Source: Ascidia mentula (taxonomy: Eukaryota; Chordata; Ascidiacea; Phlebobranchia; Ascidiidae). Taken from it: 64,000 nt of DNA. The notes beneath the pieces are model-generated. The model saw nothing but the letters and a program-made list of their open reading frames with translations. It made no database searches and had not been told where the DNA came from. Where the stretch lies: the NCBI GenBank assembly GCA_947561715.1, contig OX387200.1, positions 10,542,501 to 10,606,500 on the forward strand, read 5' to 3'. Of the stretch, positions 39,501-47,500 are shown piece after piece. The position numbers and the translations under genes are program-made. Each line of letters starts with the position of its first letter. Position 1 is the first letter of the stretch.

Positions 39501-42493
39501 AATTAAGAAATGTGCCGTATCAGTCTTATGTCTGCAACTAAATTGTCCTGCTTTGGCAGGGCCAAAGAGTGCCAAAGCAGGACAATTCACAAAGTACTTA
39601 AAAACAGATAAACCCAAACTACGCTGAAGCTTATTACCAGCGAGGAATGTGCCGCTTAAAACTTGATCATTCGAAAGGAGTGCAAGACCTGAACAGGGCT
39701 CTTGCCCTTCAACCAAAGTTGTTTGAAGCTTATCTTAGTAGGGCGGCGTTTTATTGCACCAAAAAGCGATACAGCAAGGTATATGTGTGTTCATATATTT
39801 TTCTCCATTTTTTATCAGAATTTTGCCGCATAAAGAATATAGTTGGATTAAACAAAACAAGTTTGCGCGCATCCAGTTTCTTATACCGCTCCCGGTTTGT
39901 CAAAATTGTTTCAAACATGCTTGTTCATCTTTGGCATTTCAACAGTGTTTAAACTACTTAACTCCCAATCGTTTGCAAAGGTACGCATTTACACATTTTT
40001 TTTATCTTTTTAGGCGATTCTCAATTGCAATGAGGCTCTTCGTTTACGACCACGAAGTGTTCGGGCTCTACTTTGTCGTGGTGCATTGAAATATCGCATT
40101 TCAGCTTTCCATCATGCCATCACTGATCTCACGCAAGCGATTCGACTAGACAAACAGTGTTCACTTGCTTACTACAACCGTGCAGTGTGTCTGCACAAGA
40201 TGAAAAAACATCAAGCAGCTTTGAAGGTGTGTACATTTTCGAAGCTTTGATAAAAATCATGTGGTTTTCTTAAAGTTTAGTATCATCATATTGCCACAGC
40301 CAACATAAAGTCATCACTGGTTTGATTTTATGTAAATTAAGTAAATTTTTAATAATTATTTTTAAATATTTCTTATCGACTGGCCAGTGTAGGCCATTCA
40401 CTGAACGCCAGAGAAACAACAAAGTTTCCAGCTACTAACAAATTTAAACCCAGATTTGGTTGTAAGAAAACATTATCAAGGTAAATCTACCTATCTGTCA
40501 CGCAGCACTGGTATGTAACAGGACTATAGCATAATTCTGATGCTGACATTGGACGATGCGAGTGAAGCAGCAAAACATCTGAGGGTTCGAGTTTTCGTCA
40601 ATCGAGCTTTGTTGTACGTCAACAGTGAGTTTCAAGATGCACGAAATGCTGCGTTGGATCTTGAGCAGGCTTCTCTACTTTCATCTGAAGATACTTTAAT
40701 TCTTCATACCATGGCATTGTGTTACCACAAGTATGAATTCTTGTAACATAACAAAATTTGGCATTCAATCTATTCGAAAAAAATAAATTTTGCCTAAGGA
40801 CATAGCAAATCCTAAAACGGAAAGAAAAACCTAGGCTGACCTGGAAAATCTTTGGTCATTCGTGTCGTTTTTAACAATTGAAAAATTTTCCACCATTAAT
40901 TTATTTAAGGATGTGGGAGCATGTGAATCTAGGCTGATGTTGCAACCATGCTTAGTATCGGTCCAAGTGTATTTGTTTGAAGGCCACAAAAGCTTCAAAA
41001 ATATATTACTTAGAAGTGATGTATTGTTTCTGCACTAGGTTATCGGATCTGGAAGAAGCAGAAAAAGCTTACTCGAAATGTTTGGAAGTCGATCCGTACT
41101 TCCTGGCTGCATACATCGGTAGAGGTGATGCTTACTGCGATGCAGGGAAACTTCGGGAGGCGAAAGTCGAGTATGAAAAAGCACTGCGGCTAAATCCTTC
41201 CAGTGTGGAAGCCAGAGTCCATCTAGGCTACAACTTACAGGCAAGGAAACTTCGACTTCAAATTTCTCATATCAGCCGACAAGAATGGTTTCCAGTTACA
41301 AAATATAAACCTCCCGATTATTTTAACTATATATATTTAACTCACCTTATTGTACAGATGAGTGGCTTTCTTCAGCTAGCTTGGACACAATTTACTTCCG
41401 CCATCGAACTGGACCCAAAATGCCAATCAGCTTTGGAAGGTCGAGCAGTCACGTGTCTACATGCCGGTAATCTCGACGCAGCCTCTCGAGATCTATCGGT
41501 TGCCCTGAAGTGTGGAGCTCCAACAGCCAGACTTCTAACAGCCTGTGGGGTTGTTCACCAGTGTCAACACGACTTGCATTCAGCAATGGCGTTTTACAAC
41601 GTAAGGAGCTAATCGATAAATGCAACAGTTGTGGTAAAACCGTACCTTATCTCCCATTTATAGTAACGTGGAAAATAGTTCAAATGGTAATTAGCCTAAC
41701 CCTAAAATATGCACATCTTCTACTTTTGCCCCATATTTAAACCAAAGATCACAAATGAAGATGTTGTTTTTTATCAACAGAAAGCTCGATCCCTCAACCC
41801 ACAATACACTCCTGGTCACTTCAATGCCACAGTTCTTTACTTAAGAGATCGGAGGTTTTCTGAGGCCAAGCAATGCCTTAACACAGTGGTGGAGCAGGAC
41901 CCAACGAACAGCGTCGCTTTTCTCAACCGCGCTGTAACAAATGTGTTTCTTGGAGACTCCAAGGTGGATAATTGTTTATATGTTACGTCACAAAGCGTGT
42001 GTTTTACCAAAGCTTTACAAAGAATGTACGTCGCTTGAAAAACATTGAACTTTCTTATACATTGCAGAATTTCTGGGACATATTTGTTCAAAGTTTGTAT
42101 AAAAATGTTTACTTACTCTTCAGAATGCAATGGAGGATTTTAACCGTGCGATTACATTGGATCCCCAGTTCGCACACTTCTACTACAATCGAGGAAACCT
42201 CTTTTTTATGCTAAATCAGTACGAAAATGCAGAAGAGGATTTTAACACAGGTAAGTGGAGATTTATGAAGATTCTTCCACTTTTCCATTAATATGAGATA
42301 CATAACCGAAGTAAAATTTGTCCGGTTATATTTAGCACTCTCGATTGACCCAAGCGACCATATTGCCTTAAAACGAAGAGCTGATGTGCATGGATGTCTT
42401 GGTAACAAGGAAAGGGCTGTTGAAGATTACCAAGAGTCACTACTGCTCTATGAAAGGAAAAAAAGGCTGGGAAAGAAGAACAAACAACAGTAA
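30569..42493 (+). CDS. TTC6-like: long TPR-repeat protein, TTC6-like
   Basis: A large protein of about 40 exons. The N-terminal part (30569 to about 36200) is charged and mostly disordered, starting MAKTTLQQWKKYNPLDKGLA. From about 36254 to the stop at 42491 there is an almost unbroken array of some 25-30 tetratricopeptide repeats. Examples are GDVFASLGDYTMAVVNYSQT, GILYSELKKYQEAMADFEQT, GMCRLKLDHSKGVQDLNRAL, GDAYCDAGKLREAKVEYEKA and RGNLFFMLNQYENAEEDFNT. Exon phases join well throughout where checked, for example 31682-31819, 31966-32125, 32691-32899 and 33630-33778. TPR solenoids are protein-binding scaffolds; the combination of a long disordered N-terminus and a C-terminal TPR array matches vertebrate TTC6, but other long TPR proteins are possible. 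The last residues are very basic (KKRLGKKNKQQ). An AATAAA lies at 42542, about 50 bp after the stop. Two introns carry small insertions, described separately. Confidence 0.8.
33932..34263. mobile_element. hAT-type MITE in a TTC6-like intron
   Basis: A 332-bp insertion flanked by the perfect 8-bp direct repeat ATTGTAAC (33924-33931 and 34264-34271). The ends are TAGGGATTCTC and, inverted, TAGTGATGTCTT, an imperfect inverted repeat. An 8-bp target duplication and TAG.GAT ends fit the hAT superfamily. The interior is rich in CCGG/CCGGGT motifs. It has no transposase frame and lies between the exon ending at about 33778 and the one beginning at about 34292. Confidence 0.85.
39491..39588. mobile_element. 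98-bp insertion ending in a perfect hairpin
   Basis: Within a short TTC6-like intron, the 11-bp direct repeat ACAAAGTACTT occurs at 39480-39490 and 39589-39599. The 98 bp between them end in a perfect inverted repeat with 18-bp arms, 39541-39558 and 39570-39587, and an 11-bp loop. The arms read AATTGTCCTGCTTTGGCA and its exact complement. The perfect match suggests recent origin or selection on the stem. The direct repeats look like a target-site duplication. The family is unknown; a miRNA-like precursor is possible but the stem is short. Confidence 0.6.
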
Positions 42494-42666
42494 ACTCACG
42501 TCGGGATGTATATTGTTCATTAAGCGTTTACATGATTAAAAAATAAAAGTCTCTGAGGTTGAAGTGTTTTCGTGACGGTAGAATACAAAAAAATAATGGC
42601 ATATTTGGTGTGATGATTGAAGTTTCATCCTGCTTTCTATACAGCTGGGTGATATTTCCTATCAAT

Positions 42667-42779
42667 TCCTATCTTTGCTTGGCCGTTTGGTCAGCAAAGT
42701 CGTCTGATAGTCACACCAGCTGCACTGATGAGACCTTTTAGGTCGAAACAGTGGCCATCTGTCTGCAGCTTATACACAA
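42667..42779 (+). mobile_element. short hammerhead-bearing retroposed unit
   Basis: About 113 bp lie between two copies of the 13-bp direct repeat ATTTCCTATCAAT (42654-42666 and 42780-42792), which look like a retroposition target-site duplication. The unit starts with a small hairpin (CTTTGCTTGGCC, loop GTTT, GGTCAGCAAAG; 42673-42699) and ends with a complete hammerhead ribozyme. It is too short to code for protein, so it must be non-autonomous. Its related copy is at about 46967-47071. Confidence 0.65.
42718..42770 (+). ncRNA. type I hammerhead ribozyme, complete core
   Basis: All invariant core positions are present. Stem I pairs 42718-42724 (AGCTGCA) with 42764-42770 (TGCAGCT), 7 perfect base pairs. 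CTGATGA lies at 42725-42731. Stem II is GACCT/AGGTC (42732-42736 with 42740-42744) with loop TTT. GAAA is at 42745-42748. Stem III is CAG/CTG (42749-42751 with 42759-42761) with loop TGGCCAT. The cleavage triplet GTC ends at 42763, so self-cleavage would fall between 42763 and 42764. Stem I is the open stem, hence type I. The very short stem III is like those of retroelement-associated hammerheads, which often work as dimers. It lies about 225 bp after the TTC6-like stop on the same strand. Confidence 0.88.
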
Positions 42780-44536
42780 ATTTCCTATCAATCATATACA
42801 GTTGTACGTTTGTTAAAACTATATGACCAACTCTTTTGAACCACAGTCCGCGGCAGTTCGCAATAACTTCATAGCACTTGTGGTACAAATTGTTCCAGCA
42901 AACACAACTACCGCATTTGACACCCCGTATGATAATAAATTGTTTAAATGTTTCACACATCATGTAGCTCTAAGGATGTGTAAGGTTTCAACCTCACCAG
43001 CAAACCGTTGTATCCGAATAAACAGTATATTATCAGGCTATGGGAATAAATCCCAAGCCGGCGAATAGCTTTGAGTCTCAGTAATAATAGCAGTGTAACA
43101 GTAATACGATGAAACAAGTAGAATCGAATGGAATCAAATAGAATCAAATAGAATGGATTTACCGGTCTAAACTGGGCCATTTAAAGCTCTCCGTACTGAG
43201 AGCTGATTGGTCAATAATGTCACGTGATATCACGAACCGCTCGAAGTAATATAATACAAGAACATAGGTGTGATGTGACCTAGGCATAGGAGAACATTTT
43301 ATGTGGTAAACAGGATGTTGAATGAATCACTTTACTCGAGAATATTCGATGGCTAAATCATTTGGGTCACATTATGGGATTATGCAGTACATGTGCAAAG
43401 CTGCGCGCAAAACATTACGCAATTCAAGCACTGGTTTCTGTGACGTATGTTACACATGTCTCCTTTCTTGCGCAGTGGTTCATAACTTCTTTTTATGTCA
43501 TTTCCCACTTTCAGTTTGAACTGAATCCTTATTTCCCACTAGGCTATTTAAATTTTTTAATCAAGAATTTAATGATTTCCTTTTCGCTATTCCAGTTACA
43601 CTAGTTTAACTTTTTCGACCGCATGGTAGCCTATATAACCAATTGGCAATAAGTGTAGCCTACGACATACAATGAATACAGATATTTCTTCTACTTCTGT
43701 TGTATATTTCGGTGCTGACTAATTACCCACACACAACCCTATAACTTCCCACCGGTGGTACAGATCTGGCACTTCAGCGTATTCATGGTTCCAAATTCGC
43801 GTCATAAATGGGTCTGACGCCATAATGTTCTTCTATAAAACGCGTGTAGCGCAGCGTGCCATAAACCGAAAATTTTCGTTTCGCCAAAGAAAGAAAAATC
43901 TAGAATTAACTGCAACTAGCGCTTCTTGCAGCTACGTGCGCTTTTGCTTCCTCGTTAGTGAGGAAAATCGCAGCACGTGGAACAAAATACTCAAAATCAA
44001 ATAATTTTCCCAATTCTAAATCCAACTACTTTATGTTTCCTGTTCCAGCTTACTACCTTCTTTTGAACAAAGTTTCAACAACAAAAAATGGGTTCAGGCC
44101 TTTTACACCAATAGCTTTAGTTTCATTTTTTTACAATTGCCATTATTGCAAACTGAATGGAAATTTATTAACTTTCGAAAGCGCAACAGCACAAATGAAG
44201 CATACTTGCACGAATTAGAATGAAAAAGTTTTATGCAGATTTTACAAATCATGATTCATTTTTTCTTATCATCTCTCCATAAACTCCAACATCAGCCAGA
44301 ATCACAAACAGTTTTTCACTGCAAATTGCTGGGTGCAAGTTCCTAACAATATTTGCCATATTTAGCTGACATCTCACACTGAAAGTATAAGCTAATGAAC
44401 AGGCATTTGAAATCTTTTGCTTCACTCGGTGCTGGATGGGAGTTCCCTGTTAATAACACAACACACCATCATGACATTGAGTGTTACATGCATGATATCA
44501 CAAATGAATGTGAGCATGTTTATGAGAAACAACTTC

Positions 44537-47500
44537 TTACCCATCCGAGTTCTGTGATATTCCTTCATCAATGTTTGGCACGGGATTTGTTTCCACAACA
44601 TTTTCTGCTGATGTTACTGCATTAGTTTTCGTATCTGAATCTTCATCTGTATTGTCTGTGGCAACCCCAGCAGTATGTTGTGGTTCCTCCACTGTTTCAA
44701 CCTGAATTTGTGAAGAATTTGTTTTTTCACCAGATTCTTGAACCTCAGTTGTCAGAGCATCATCGAAGTTGTCTCTGCACAACACAATTGCTGATCTTAC
44801 ACGCGGTCACTTTATATTGCTAAATGCAGAAAATACTGTAACAAAAATTAGAAACGGCCAATAAGGTGGCCTAATCTTATATATATAATATAAAAATACA
44901 ACCTACCCTTCTTCACTATCAACACTTTTAAAGTCATCATCATCTGATTTACTTCCTTCAGTTTGTTGGTCTTCTTTACCATCTTTAATTTCAACTTCAT
45001 CACACTTGTCAGTTTCCAGATTTGCAGTTATTTTTTCATTGCTGTTGGCATCTTCTCCATTTTGTTTTGATGAATCATATAATTCACTACTATTTTCATC
45101 CTTGGTACCAGGACTGTCAGCATTTATAATTGCTTCGGTTTGGAGTTTTTCTTCTGGCTCTTCAGGTACAGCATCAACTGACAGTGCACTTTCAGTTGTT
45201 TTTTCTTCAACATCTTTTTGAGTTAAAGAACTTGACTCGGGGGTTACAGTGTCACTGCTCATTTCTCCCCTTTGTTCACCTGTGAATGCATCAATTGTTC
45301 CCGGTTCAATTTGAATAGGATCTGCACTAACAGCAACCCTTTCTTCCCCATCTCCAGAGTTTGATTCATCAGTCTGTTTCTCATCTGAATTAGGCACATT
45401 TTTATCAATGGATTCACTCGGAACCTCTACATCAGCTATTTCCAATTTATCACTAGCTTCATCCATCTTTTCCTTTTTCAAAATAGGATTAACATCTGTA
45501 GTGGTGGAATCACTAATCAGATCTACTGCACCAGCAGATTCCAAAGGTTTATCACCTGTTACATCCTTATTTTCCTCTTTGTTGATATCATCAACTTGCT
45601 GAGTAGCACCGCTATTTGAATCACCTGCACTGGTAGACTCCAAGGGTTTGGTACTGTCTCCATCTTCATTTTTCTCTTCAACAATAGGATTAACTTGCTG
45701 AGTAGCACCGCTATTTGAATCTACTGCACTGGTAGACTCCAAGGGTTTGGTACTGTCTCCATCTTCATTTTTCTCTTCAACAATAGGATTAACTTGCTGA
45801 GTAGCACCGCTATTTGAATCACCTGCACTGGTAGACTCCATGGGTTTGGTACTGTCTCCATCTTCATTTTTCTCTTCAACAATAGGATCAACTTGCGGAG
45901 TAGCATTGTAACTTGGACTTCTCATCTCCATTTCAGTTGCCCAGTCATCAACTTTTCTAAAATTTTCAGGGGTTTTCATTGGGCTTATCATTGAACCACC
46001 ACTGTTTGGAGTTTTATTTGCCGATGAGTTAGATTCAGAATCTCCTGAGTTTGGGGTCTCTTGGTTTTTTATGGAGACTTTAAGATCAGGATGTTTTTTG
46101 GCTTTTTCTTGTGGCTTTGGGGTGACACCCTTGGGTTCTCTACCTCTACCTCTTCCACGACCCCTGCCCCGACCTCTTCCACGGGAGTAGTTGTTAAACT
46201 GATTTGTGGTGCTCTCTGATGATTGTTCTTGCTCATGAGAAAGATTTCTAAATGTCACAAAAATTGGCAGGTAAAAATAGAAGCAAATTAAAAGAGACAA
46301 CCTCTCTGTGATAAATAAGGTAGTCGCCAAAAAGTAGTCAATAATTTGTGCTACAACAAAAGGAAAGCTGTTTTATCATTTTAGGCATTTTGTAAATATG
46401 TAACCAAACTACGTTCCTTTACAATTAGTTGCTGAAGTTAACACTCAAAGTATTCTTACCTGGCAGAATGATGGGTTTCTTCATCTTCATGAGAATATGT
46501 TTTAGGTCTGCTGTTATTTGGGTTTTGAGTGTCATCATTCTGCGACTTATCTGCAAATATTTTAGGCCAATATAATTTTTGCAAATACGTTTATCGTCGG
46601 TAAATAATAAACCTACGTCCTGCAGAGCTACTTGCATGTCCTGAACCCCTTTCATTTTTTGTCCTTCTTGGTCTTTCCTTTGGTTGCTGTTGTTGATCAC
46701 CATCGTCTAATCCAACATTTTTTTTATTACTGTAAAGATAATTTCACTTCTTTGTTCTTTTAAAAGTTTTACATAAACAAGTCTAGGTTGGTCGGTTTGT
46801 TGTATATGAAAGTTATCTTAATGAATATTATGGCTCTTTTTGCACATATATGAATTGGGTTAACCCGAGCCAGAAGCACTACCGGCTATGTGGTTCATCT
46901 CTATCATTTGGGACATAGTTGGGTACCCAACAGATCAACGTTGACCGAAAGGTACCACAAAGTGGAAATCTGTGTGCCTGCTAGTGTAAAAGCTAGTGCA
47001 ATGCCACAGTCAACAGTTGCACTGATGAGACCTTTCAGGTCGATACAGTGTGTACACCCTGTCTGTGACTTTCAAAGTGTAAGAAGTTACCCAAAGTCGG
47101 CCAATTTCCTTCTGGGTCTTGTGAAGAGCCAGATTTACGATGCTCTCTATTTCTTGTTTGCTGTGGTTGGCGTGACTCAGAATATTGGTCTCTGTAACTG
47201 CGTTGTCCTCTGGGTTGTTGATGTTGTGGAGGTCTGTCACTTTTGTGACTATTCTCACTGCAAGCAGCCAATAAAGACAACAGTGATTCTATTCAACAAC
47301 AAATGTTATTACTTCTTGAGCATAAACAGTTTTCCATTAGGTCTTAATAGCTAACAAATGGGAGTGCTATAAGAGCAGCCAAAACATCCTATAATTAGTC
47401 CCTGCAAATAGCAACCGTTTTTATCAAATTAGGTGGCTTACTGCTTTTCATTGTCCCATTCTCTTCTCCACTGACCAGCCTCGGTGTGAGATCTTCTCAT

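Follow-up and report, generated by a model that had tools for sequence, protein, structure and literature searches.

A type I hammerhead retrozyme family in the genome of the sea squirt Ascidia mentula and its Penelope-like insertion signature

The stretch of DNA analysed here (the window) comprises 64,000 nucleotides of the Ascidia mentula genome (assembly GCA_947561715.1, contig OX387200.1, positions 10,542,501 to 10,606,500 of the forward strand) and holds, downstream of a tetratricopeptide-repeat gene, a small insertion with a type I hammerhead ribozyme. The cytochrome oxidase gene of the same genome (contig C79) fits an ascidian host: when translated by the ascidian mitochondrial code (table 13) it has glycine where glycine is conserved, and arginine in these places by table 4. 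The insertion occupies 113 bp on the plus strand (42667-42779) between two copies of a perfect 13-bp target-site duplication, ATTTCCTATCAAT, located at 42654-42666 on the left and at 42780-42792 on the right. Positions 42672-42782 match unit positions 174-284 of a ~285-bp element found elsewhere in the genome at 100% identity, the last three bases being shared with the duplication. The 5' junction carries a filler (TCCTATC, 42667-42673) that matches a portion of the target-site duplication and has its last two bases in common with the unit. The 3' end (...ACACAA/ATT, 42779-42782) lies 16-19 nt past the predicted cleavage site of the ribozyme, belongs to the end class termed A below, and may represent the start of reverse transcription. 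The original prediction had taken 42667-42779 as a unit; these bounds are base-exact against the duplications, and the 113 bp are a 5'-truncated part of the full element. Judged from its sequence, the window element is thus an incomplete member of a new family within the known metazoan retrozymes lacking long terminal repeats (non-LTR retrozymes).

The hammerhead and its surroundings

The ribozyme spans 42718-42770 on the plus strand, where all its elements were found as originally predicted. Stem I pairs AGCTGCA (42718-42724) with TGCAGCT (42764-42770) over 7 bp, and is followed by the core CTGATGA (42725-42731), stem II (GACCT/AGGTC, 42732-42736/42740-42744), the core GAAA (42745-42748) and the 4-bp stem III (ACAG/CTGT, 42748-42751/42759-42762), which closes on loop III (TGGCCAT, 42752-42758) with the palindrome TGGCCA. 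From established hammerhead chemistry, cleavage is predicted after C17 of GTC (42763), that is between 42763 and 42764. Type I hammerheads are defined by the core CUGANGA, GAAA and NUH, by three helices and by an open helix I, and the window motif shows this core and these helices. The earlier assignment, including the three helices and the predicted cleavage site, is therefore correct, and it is on the strength of its core and helices, rather than of an Rfam match, that the motif is called a real type I hammerhead. The window contains the loose pattern CTGATGAN{8,20}GAAAN{4,30}GTC twice, compared to 0.11 occurrences expected from 100 shuffles, and the second of the two (46216) has no stem II evident by eye. 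Genome-wide, the core pattern CTGATGAN{6,16}CGAAAC was found 3,241 times and its reversed version 27 times, and several sequence families are present among the first 100 of the 3,241 cores listed. This excess, together with at least 86 similar matches in the genome, shows that the window hammerhead is not a chance match, in line with the original view that a chance origin is very unlikely.

A palindrome in loop III recurs among several subfamilies (including L082 and L085) despite differing sequence (TGGCCA, GTGTACAC, GTGTATACAC), and is not kept exactly by every member. Newt-type hammerheads with palindromic loops are described as acting as dimers (PMC7229834), and by analogy it is a fair guess that the retrozyme RNA may form a dimer contact, or act as a dimer, through loop III. 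A high degree of self-pairing is a trait of metazoan retrozyme RNAs. The RNA of the whole unit has a predicted fold of -96 kcal/mol (z -2.6, 2 of 200 shuffles being as stable), and since the reverse strand is similarly stable (z -2.5, 1 of 200), this predicted stability is not strand-specific.

The upstream gene lies on the same strand, with its stop codon at 42491-42493, outside the element and ~225 bp before the hammerhead, and its AATAAA at 42542-42547, both placed as earlier described. Tetratricopeptide repeats match all five of the exon-sized upstream frames scanned, those of the fifth frame (its last two families) falling below the curated cut-offs. That the gene encodes such repeats is therefore upheld, and the label TTC6 stays putative. 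Further downstream, a 99-bp tandem repeat (45593-45905; 3.2 copies, 96% alike) has a period divisible by three and is perhaps a coding repeat.

A dispersed family with two preferred 3' ends

A search of the genome (195.8 Mb in 79 contigs, match counts being lower bounds) for further copies of the unit retrieved at least 86 matches, mostly 98-100% identical to the unit (lowest 85%). They form 40 clusters, lie on both strands and are spread over nine chromosomes. Neighbours on the same strand occur in 12 of the 40 clusters, and the two arrays scanned have a period of 285 bp, with 3.5 and 5.9 copies, respectively. The GC content of one unit is 47.5%, compared to 36.8% for the window. The family thus shows what is expected of metazoan non-LTR retrozymes: non-coding tandem repeats of ~170-400 bp with a type I hammerhead, a GC content below 50% and target-site duplications longer than 4 bp. 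Neither a reverse transcriptase (RT) nor a GIY-YIG domain was seen by eye in frames of at least 120 aa in L032 and L033, and by these loci the family does not itself belong to the Penelope-like elements (PLEs).

Copies within an array differ by a mean of 1.8 changes, against 3.0 between arrays (22 full copies, 10 loci), a likeness reached in only 1 of 5000 label shuffles; L034, which holds a deleted copy, fits it less well. Such likeness would agree with the formation of each insertion from one circle, and equally with the copying of an already homogeneous array. In L031 and L032, the copies of one array differ near unit position 150 by inserted or changed bases that adjoin a GGTGA...TCACC hairpin, which looks like a copying error at a fixed spot. 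An older retrozyme relative, 74% identical, borders on a PLE insertion, in whose flanking sequence it is located (L058, 214-370). In L041 and L042 (C1:1923400-1976000), repeated segments of 2.1-2.8 kb each carry a hammerhead relative, and the ribozyme copies there are spread by segmental duplication. The hammerhead pairs of these two loci, with 2.1-2.8 kb between the partners, were considered as an autonomous partner of the family and rejected, as no frame resembling a reverse transcriptase was seen by eye.

The ends of the insertions were classified by one script, on a first set of 26 insertions and then on the other 14 clusters, which had been held out. Duplications of at least 12 bp (12-16 bp) flank 28 of the 40 insertions (17 of the first 26 and 11 of the 14 held out), compared to 1 in 650 mismatched pairings of left and right flanks in the first set. 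No target-site consensus beyond A+T richness was apparent by eye among the duplications. The outward 3' ends (n=63) fall almost entirely at two sites, A (unit positions 281-284; 34 ends) and B (24-40; 27 ends), the other two lying at unit positions 249 and 254. As the hammerhead occupies unit positions 220-272 with cleavage predicted after 265, site A is located 16-19 nt and site B 43-59 nt past the predicted cleavage site. None of the 63 ends coincides with the cleavage site itself (unit 262-268), a result valid for all but very short copies, which escape a search query spanning the ribozyme; any copy that stopped at the cleavage site would still have been retrieved. This distribution implies that the copied templates were continuous across the cleavage site, either as circles or as uncut multimers.

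Of the 40 insertions, 23 have a 3' end on either outer side: the left-hand copies are in minus and the right-hand copies in plus orientation, arranged head to head, and the junctions between them often overlap by a few bases. The two ends of such an insertion are rarely of the same kind: 20 of the 23 combine A with B (15 of 17 in the first set, 5 of 6 held out), two combine B with another position, and one has A at both ends. Compared to an even mix, the 20 A+B combinations give p = 0.0005 when insertions are treated as independent. The only A/A insertion (L039, C67:9119234-9119768) is flanked by an inverted, not a direct, repeat (CATTAAAACTTA / TAAGTTTTAATG). The remaining 17 insertions are single-ended or complex, and the window copy, with its one end of class A, is of the single-ended type. 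The same outward geometry is reflected in the orientation of retrozyme matches lying within 1 kb of each other (-/+ 21, ++ 13, -- 11 and +/- 1, among the at least 86 matches), and of hammerhead cores at that distance (-/+ 7, ++ 6, -- 1 and +/- 0, among the cores listed). Distant relatives taken from -/+ pairs (L074, L083 and L085) likewise carry 12-14-bp duplications and unequal ends in all three cases.

Penelope-like elements and the proposed mobilisation

In the same genome, a GIY-YIG profile matched at least 121 places (150 of 382 candidates scored); RT and GIY-YIG domains are both present in the two PLE reading frames examined. Neighbouring GIY-YIG matches within 6 kb (23 pairs) are oriented -/+ in 17 cases, ++ in five, -- in one and +/- in none, the same 3'-out geometry as seen in the retrozyme copies. 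The outer ends were taken for six of the 17 -/+ pairs, and exact duplications of 12-14 bp were found in all six, compared to no more than 8 bp in 30 mismatched pairings. In all six insertions, moreover, one end is longer than the other by 31-42 nt. In the main PLE family the shorter end stops 0-1 nt past AATT; its longer counterpart runs 37-43 nt further, and this extension begins with CAT where the reading frame starts. The sequence AATT/CAT is common to site A of the retrozyme and to this family, and a hammerhead-like motif is located beside sites A and B in two PLE families. A further locus (L052, C67:6134028-6146916) is a head-to-head tandem PLE array with a period of 2,870 bp and an unbroken 892-aa frame. 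The retrozyme insertions thereby display the signature of PLE insertions, namely 3'-out head-to-head copies with a longer tail at one end.

Given the unit, its tandem arrays, the duplications, the A/B ends and the 3'-out geometry, all of which are observed, as is the same signature in PLEs, the family is probably a non-autonomous non-LTR retrozyme moved by PLE machinery via a cleaved circular RNA; self-cleavage, circularity and a PLE protein acting in trans are the steps that we infer. Tandem copies would be transcribed, the hammerhead would cut the transcript into ~285-nt units, and these would be ligated into circles. The protein of an endonuclease-bearing PLE would then bind the RNA just 3' of the ribozyme, cut the target strands 12-16 bp apart, and start reverse transcription internally at the two adjacent sites A and B, repeated rounds on the circle giving rise to tandem copies. 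If both cut strands prime, two complementary DNAs with ends at A and at B, respectively, would meet in head-to-head orientation, and if only one strand primes, a single truncated copy would be left, as in the window. The A/B insertion signature supports Penelope-like mobilisation of animal retrozymes.

More tentatively, and with rather less confidence, retrozymes may be regarded as parasites of PLEs comparable to short interspersed nuclear elements (SINE-like), with a PLE dimer seated on one RNA circle, each protomer cutting one target strand and the two primers starting at adjacent sites. If so, the two ends of one insertion should hardly ever be the same, and the A and B sites beside the ribozyme would constitute a portable recognition module common to PLEs and retrozymes. 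The near-absence of same-site ends (one A/A in 23) constrains any model of PLE insertion, since in vitro work found no strand difference in the start site. Retrozymes give rise to ribozyme-cleaved circular RNAs in many animals, and the main worth of the present family is this PLE insertion signature: the enzyme that returns retrozymes to DNA has so far only been proposed in the publications cited here ("strong candidate", PMC7229834), and the PLE link can be tested with a single purified protein and a single RNA of ~285 nt.

A number of observations weigh against mobilisation by PLE machinery via a cleaved circle. The original prediction had named a covariance-model score below threshold as a ground for its refutation, and formally this is what the Rfam scan of the window returned, with 0 matches at the gathering score. 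A lax scan of 42550-42900 yielded RF00008 at 20.6 bits (gathering 48.5) and RF03152 at 19.9 bits (gathering 56.3), and RF00163, the hammerhead type I model, was absent from its matches. As the array copies in L031 are likewise sub-threshold, decay of the window copy is not the reason for the low score. A whole-genome search with RF00163 found nothing, neither here nor in 14 control genomes, and is therefore uninformative, and no hammerhead was among the Rfam matches to the PLE motif of L053. The 7 bp of helix I form one continuous stem in which no internal loop was identified by eye, so that the tertiary contact that speeds canonical hammerheads is not evident. In the most stable fold predicted, the CUG of the core is base-paired (-17.4 kcal/mol, against -16.0 kcal/mol for the hammerhead fold), and in the best fold predicted for the family CACUG pairs with CAGUG, which would block the core by a small margin in an energy model that has no hammerhead-core terms. 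Covariation is uninformative in 18 family members (1 pair changed on both sides, a result reached by 107 of 500 shuffles) and, being too low, was dropped as support; the alignment omits L069 (poor), L081 (truncated), the PLE-like L067, L068, L075, L077, L078 and L079, and the second copies in L041 and L042.

To these may be added the 12 of 40 insertions in which duplications of at least 12 bp are absent, and a hammerhead relative in L086 (548-585; C1:3526447) whose BLAST match ends at unit position 256, with GTC and then, as judged by eye, unrelated sequence, and for which no duplication of at least 9 bp was found. This copy seems to end at or just before GTC, as a cleaved linear RNA might leave it. 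On the PLE side, five of the six insertions belong to one family and do not represent six independent families, the PLE family of L056/L057 and the relative L085 have no AATT/CAT, and no hammerhead was found by pattern search in the L052 array. The exclusiveness of the signature to PLEs would rest on PMC11167929, the comparison made here being confined to PLEs. In that in vitro work on a lizard PLE, insertion was unaffected by ribozyme mutants, the ribozyme cut only when protein was added, with 0 reads ending at the cleavage site, and the start site showed no difference between the top and bottom strands (PMC11167929). Head-to-head PLE repeats have also been explained by self-priming on an antisense template, and cross-mobilisation between a host's two PLE types was not seen (both PMC3846280).

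An uncleaved multimeric linear transcript as the template, with the ribozyme acting elsewhere or not at all, departs in one step only from the mechanism with a cleaved circle, and is unlikely. The A/B ends would be explained by any RNA that runs uninterrupted through the cleavage site. Such RNA could be transcribed from the tandem arrays already present and then copied, and the independence of PLE insertion from ribozyme cleavage in vitro (PMC11167929) is in its favour; the private variants common to the copies of an array and the core kept in thousands of copies fit circles, neither being decisive. The unit might also be a solo or tandem pseudo-LTR of a PLE that lost its frame, so that only the ribozyme-bearing repeat spreads, a derivation that would explain the alike insertion geometry, the hammerhead-like motif beside A and B in two PLE families and the AATT/CAT at A common to one of them. 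It is nevertheless rather improbable: no stem corresponding to helix III is apparent in the PLE-type motif (CTGAAGA...GAAACGTC), in contrast to the 4-bp helix III of the retrozyme, and a BLAST comparison of the unit to 22 loci (L044-L065) gave two significant and two marginal matches, none in a PLE end, that of L058 lying outside the PLE in its flank and that of L045 on the strand opposite to the GIY-YIG match (L057 and L048 were marginal, E 0.96).

The original prediction tied the ribozyme to the upstream gene, and a functional 3'-end element cutting read-through transcripts would be compatible with an intact core that follows the stop codon at a distance of 225 bp and in the same orientation. 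Self-cleavage of read-through transcripts at this site is possible; the tie to the gene as such is unsupported, as the window copy belongs to a mobile element common to 40 places on both strands, was inserted in truncated form between target duplications of its own, and bears no sign of selection that was seen, which leaves a role of this kind very improbable. The tandem period of 285 and the likeness within arrays recall ordinary satellite DNA grown by unequal crossing-over, in which the ribozyme would be incidental. The duplications of 12-16 bp, the two fixed 3' end sites with variable 5' ends and the head-to-head junctions of the dispersed copies point to the insertion of reverse-transcribed copies and contradict the satellite reading for these, so that as an account of the family it is barely credible; growth of single arrays by crossing-over is possible.

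Relation to known retrozymes and Penelope-like elements

Metazoan non-LTR retrozymes with type I hammerheads were described by Cervera and de la Pena 2020 (PMC7229834), and the setting, originally believed to be unlisted, is therefore not new in kind. Among tunicates, nine type I loci are reported in Didemnum vexillum (PMC8704543), and a literature search, most subscription journals being outside its coverage, returned no other report of tunicate hammerheads. The A. mentula family resembles the published retrozymes in its type I hammerhead, its dispersed non-coding tandem repeats of 170-400 bp, its GC content below 50%, its duplications longer than 4 bp and the presence of PLEs in the same genome. 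It differs in sequence, in its sea-squirt host and in that an internal loop of helix I was not identified; furthermore, the published retrozymes are expressed as linear and circular RNA of unit length, and the circles of the present family are putative. For the duplications of animal retrozymes, the main text of PMC7229834 gives only a length "larger than 4 bp", and a term search of that main text found no mention of a tail, of inverted or head-to-head copies or of initiation. PLEs are named there as a strong candidate for retrozyme mobilisation, and as likely candidates in PMC7761336, a proposal which, as set out in these sources, was made without the insertion evidence given here.

Several features of PLE insertion described elsewhere are of direct relevance. 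The lizard PLE protein starts in vitro at two adjacent internal sites and extends on both strands, and the interval between the start sites was equated with the PLE tail by the authors (PMC11167929); as that work reports no strand difference, the A/B pairing found here goes beyond it. Rotifer PLEs were already described as having a tail on one of their inverted repeats, and in one of these elements an unrelated gene, located between the repeats, was carried in trans (PMC3846280). The retrozyme family shares with endonuclease-bearing PLEs the head-to-head inverted and tandem repeats and the short duplications (PMC3846280, PMC11167929), as well as a tail of 30-40 bp at one end, a hammerhead beside the initiation sites and initiation inside the RNA. 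Unlike these elements it has no RT reading frame and possesses a helix III, and its duplications measure 12-16 bp, compared to 8-10 bp in rotifer PLEs (PMC3846280). The minimal hammerheads of PLEs and Terminons, described without helix III or tertiary contact (PMC7761336), are likewise of type I, with a helix I devoid of an identifiable tertiary-contact loop (PMC7229834, PMC7761336), from which the retrozyme hammerhead is set apart by its 4-bp helix III and palindromic loop.
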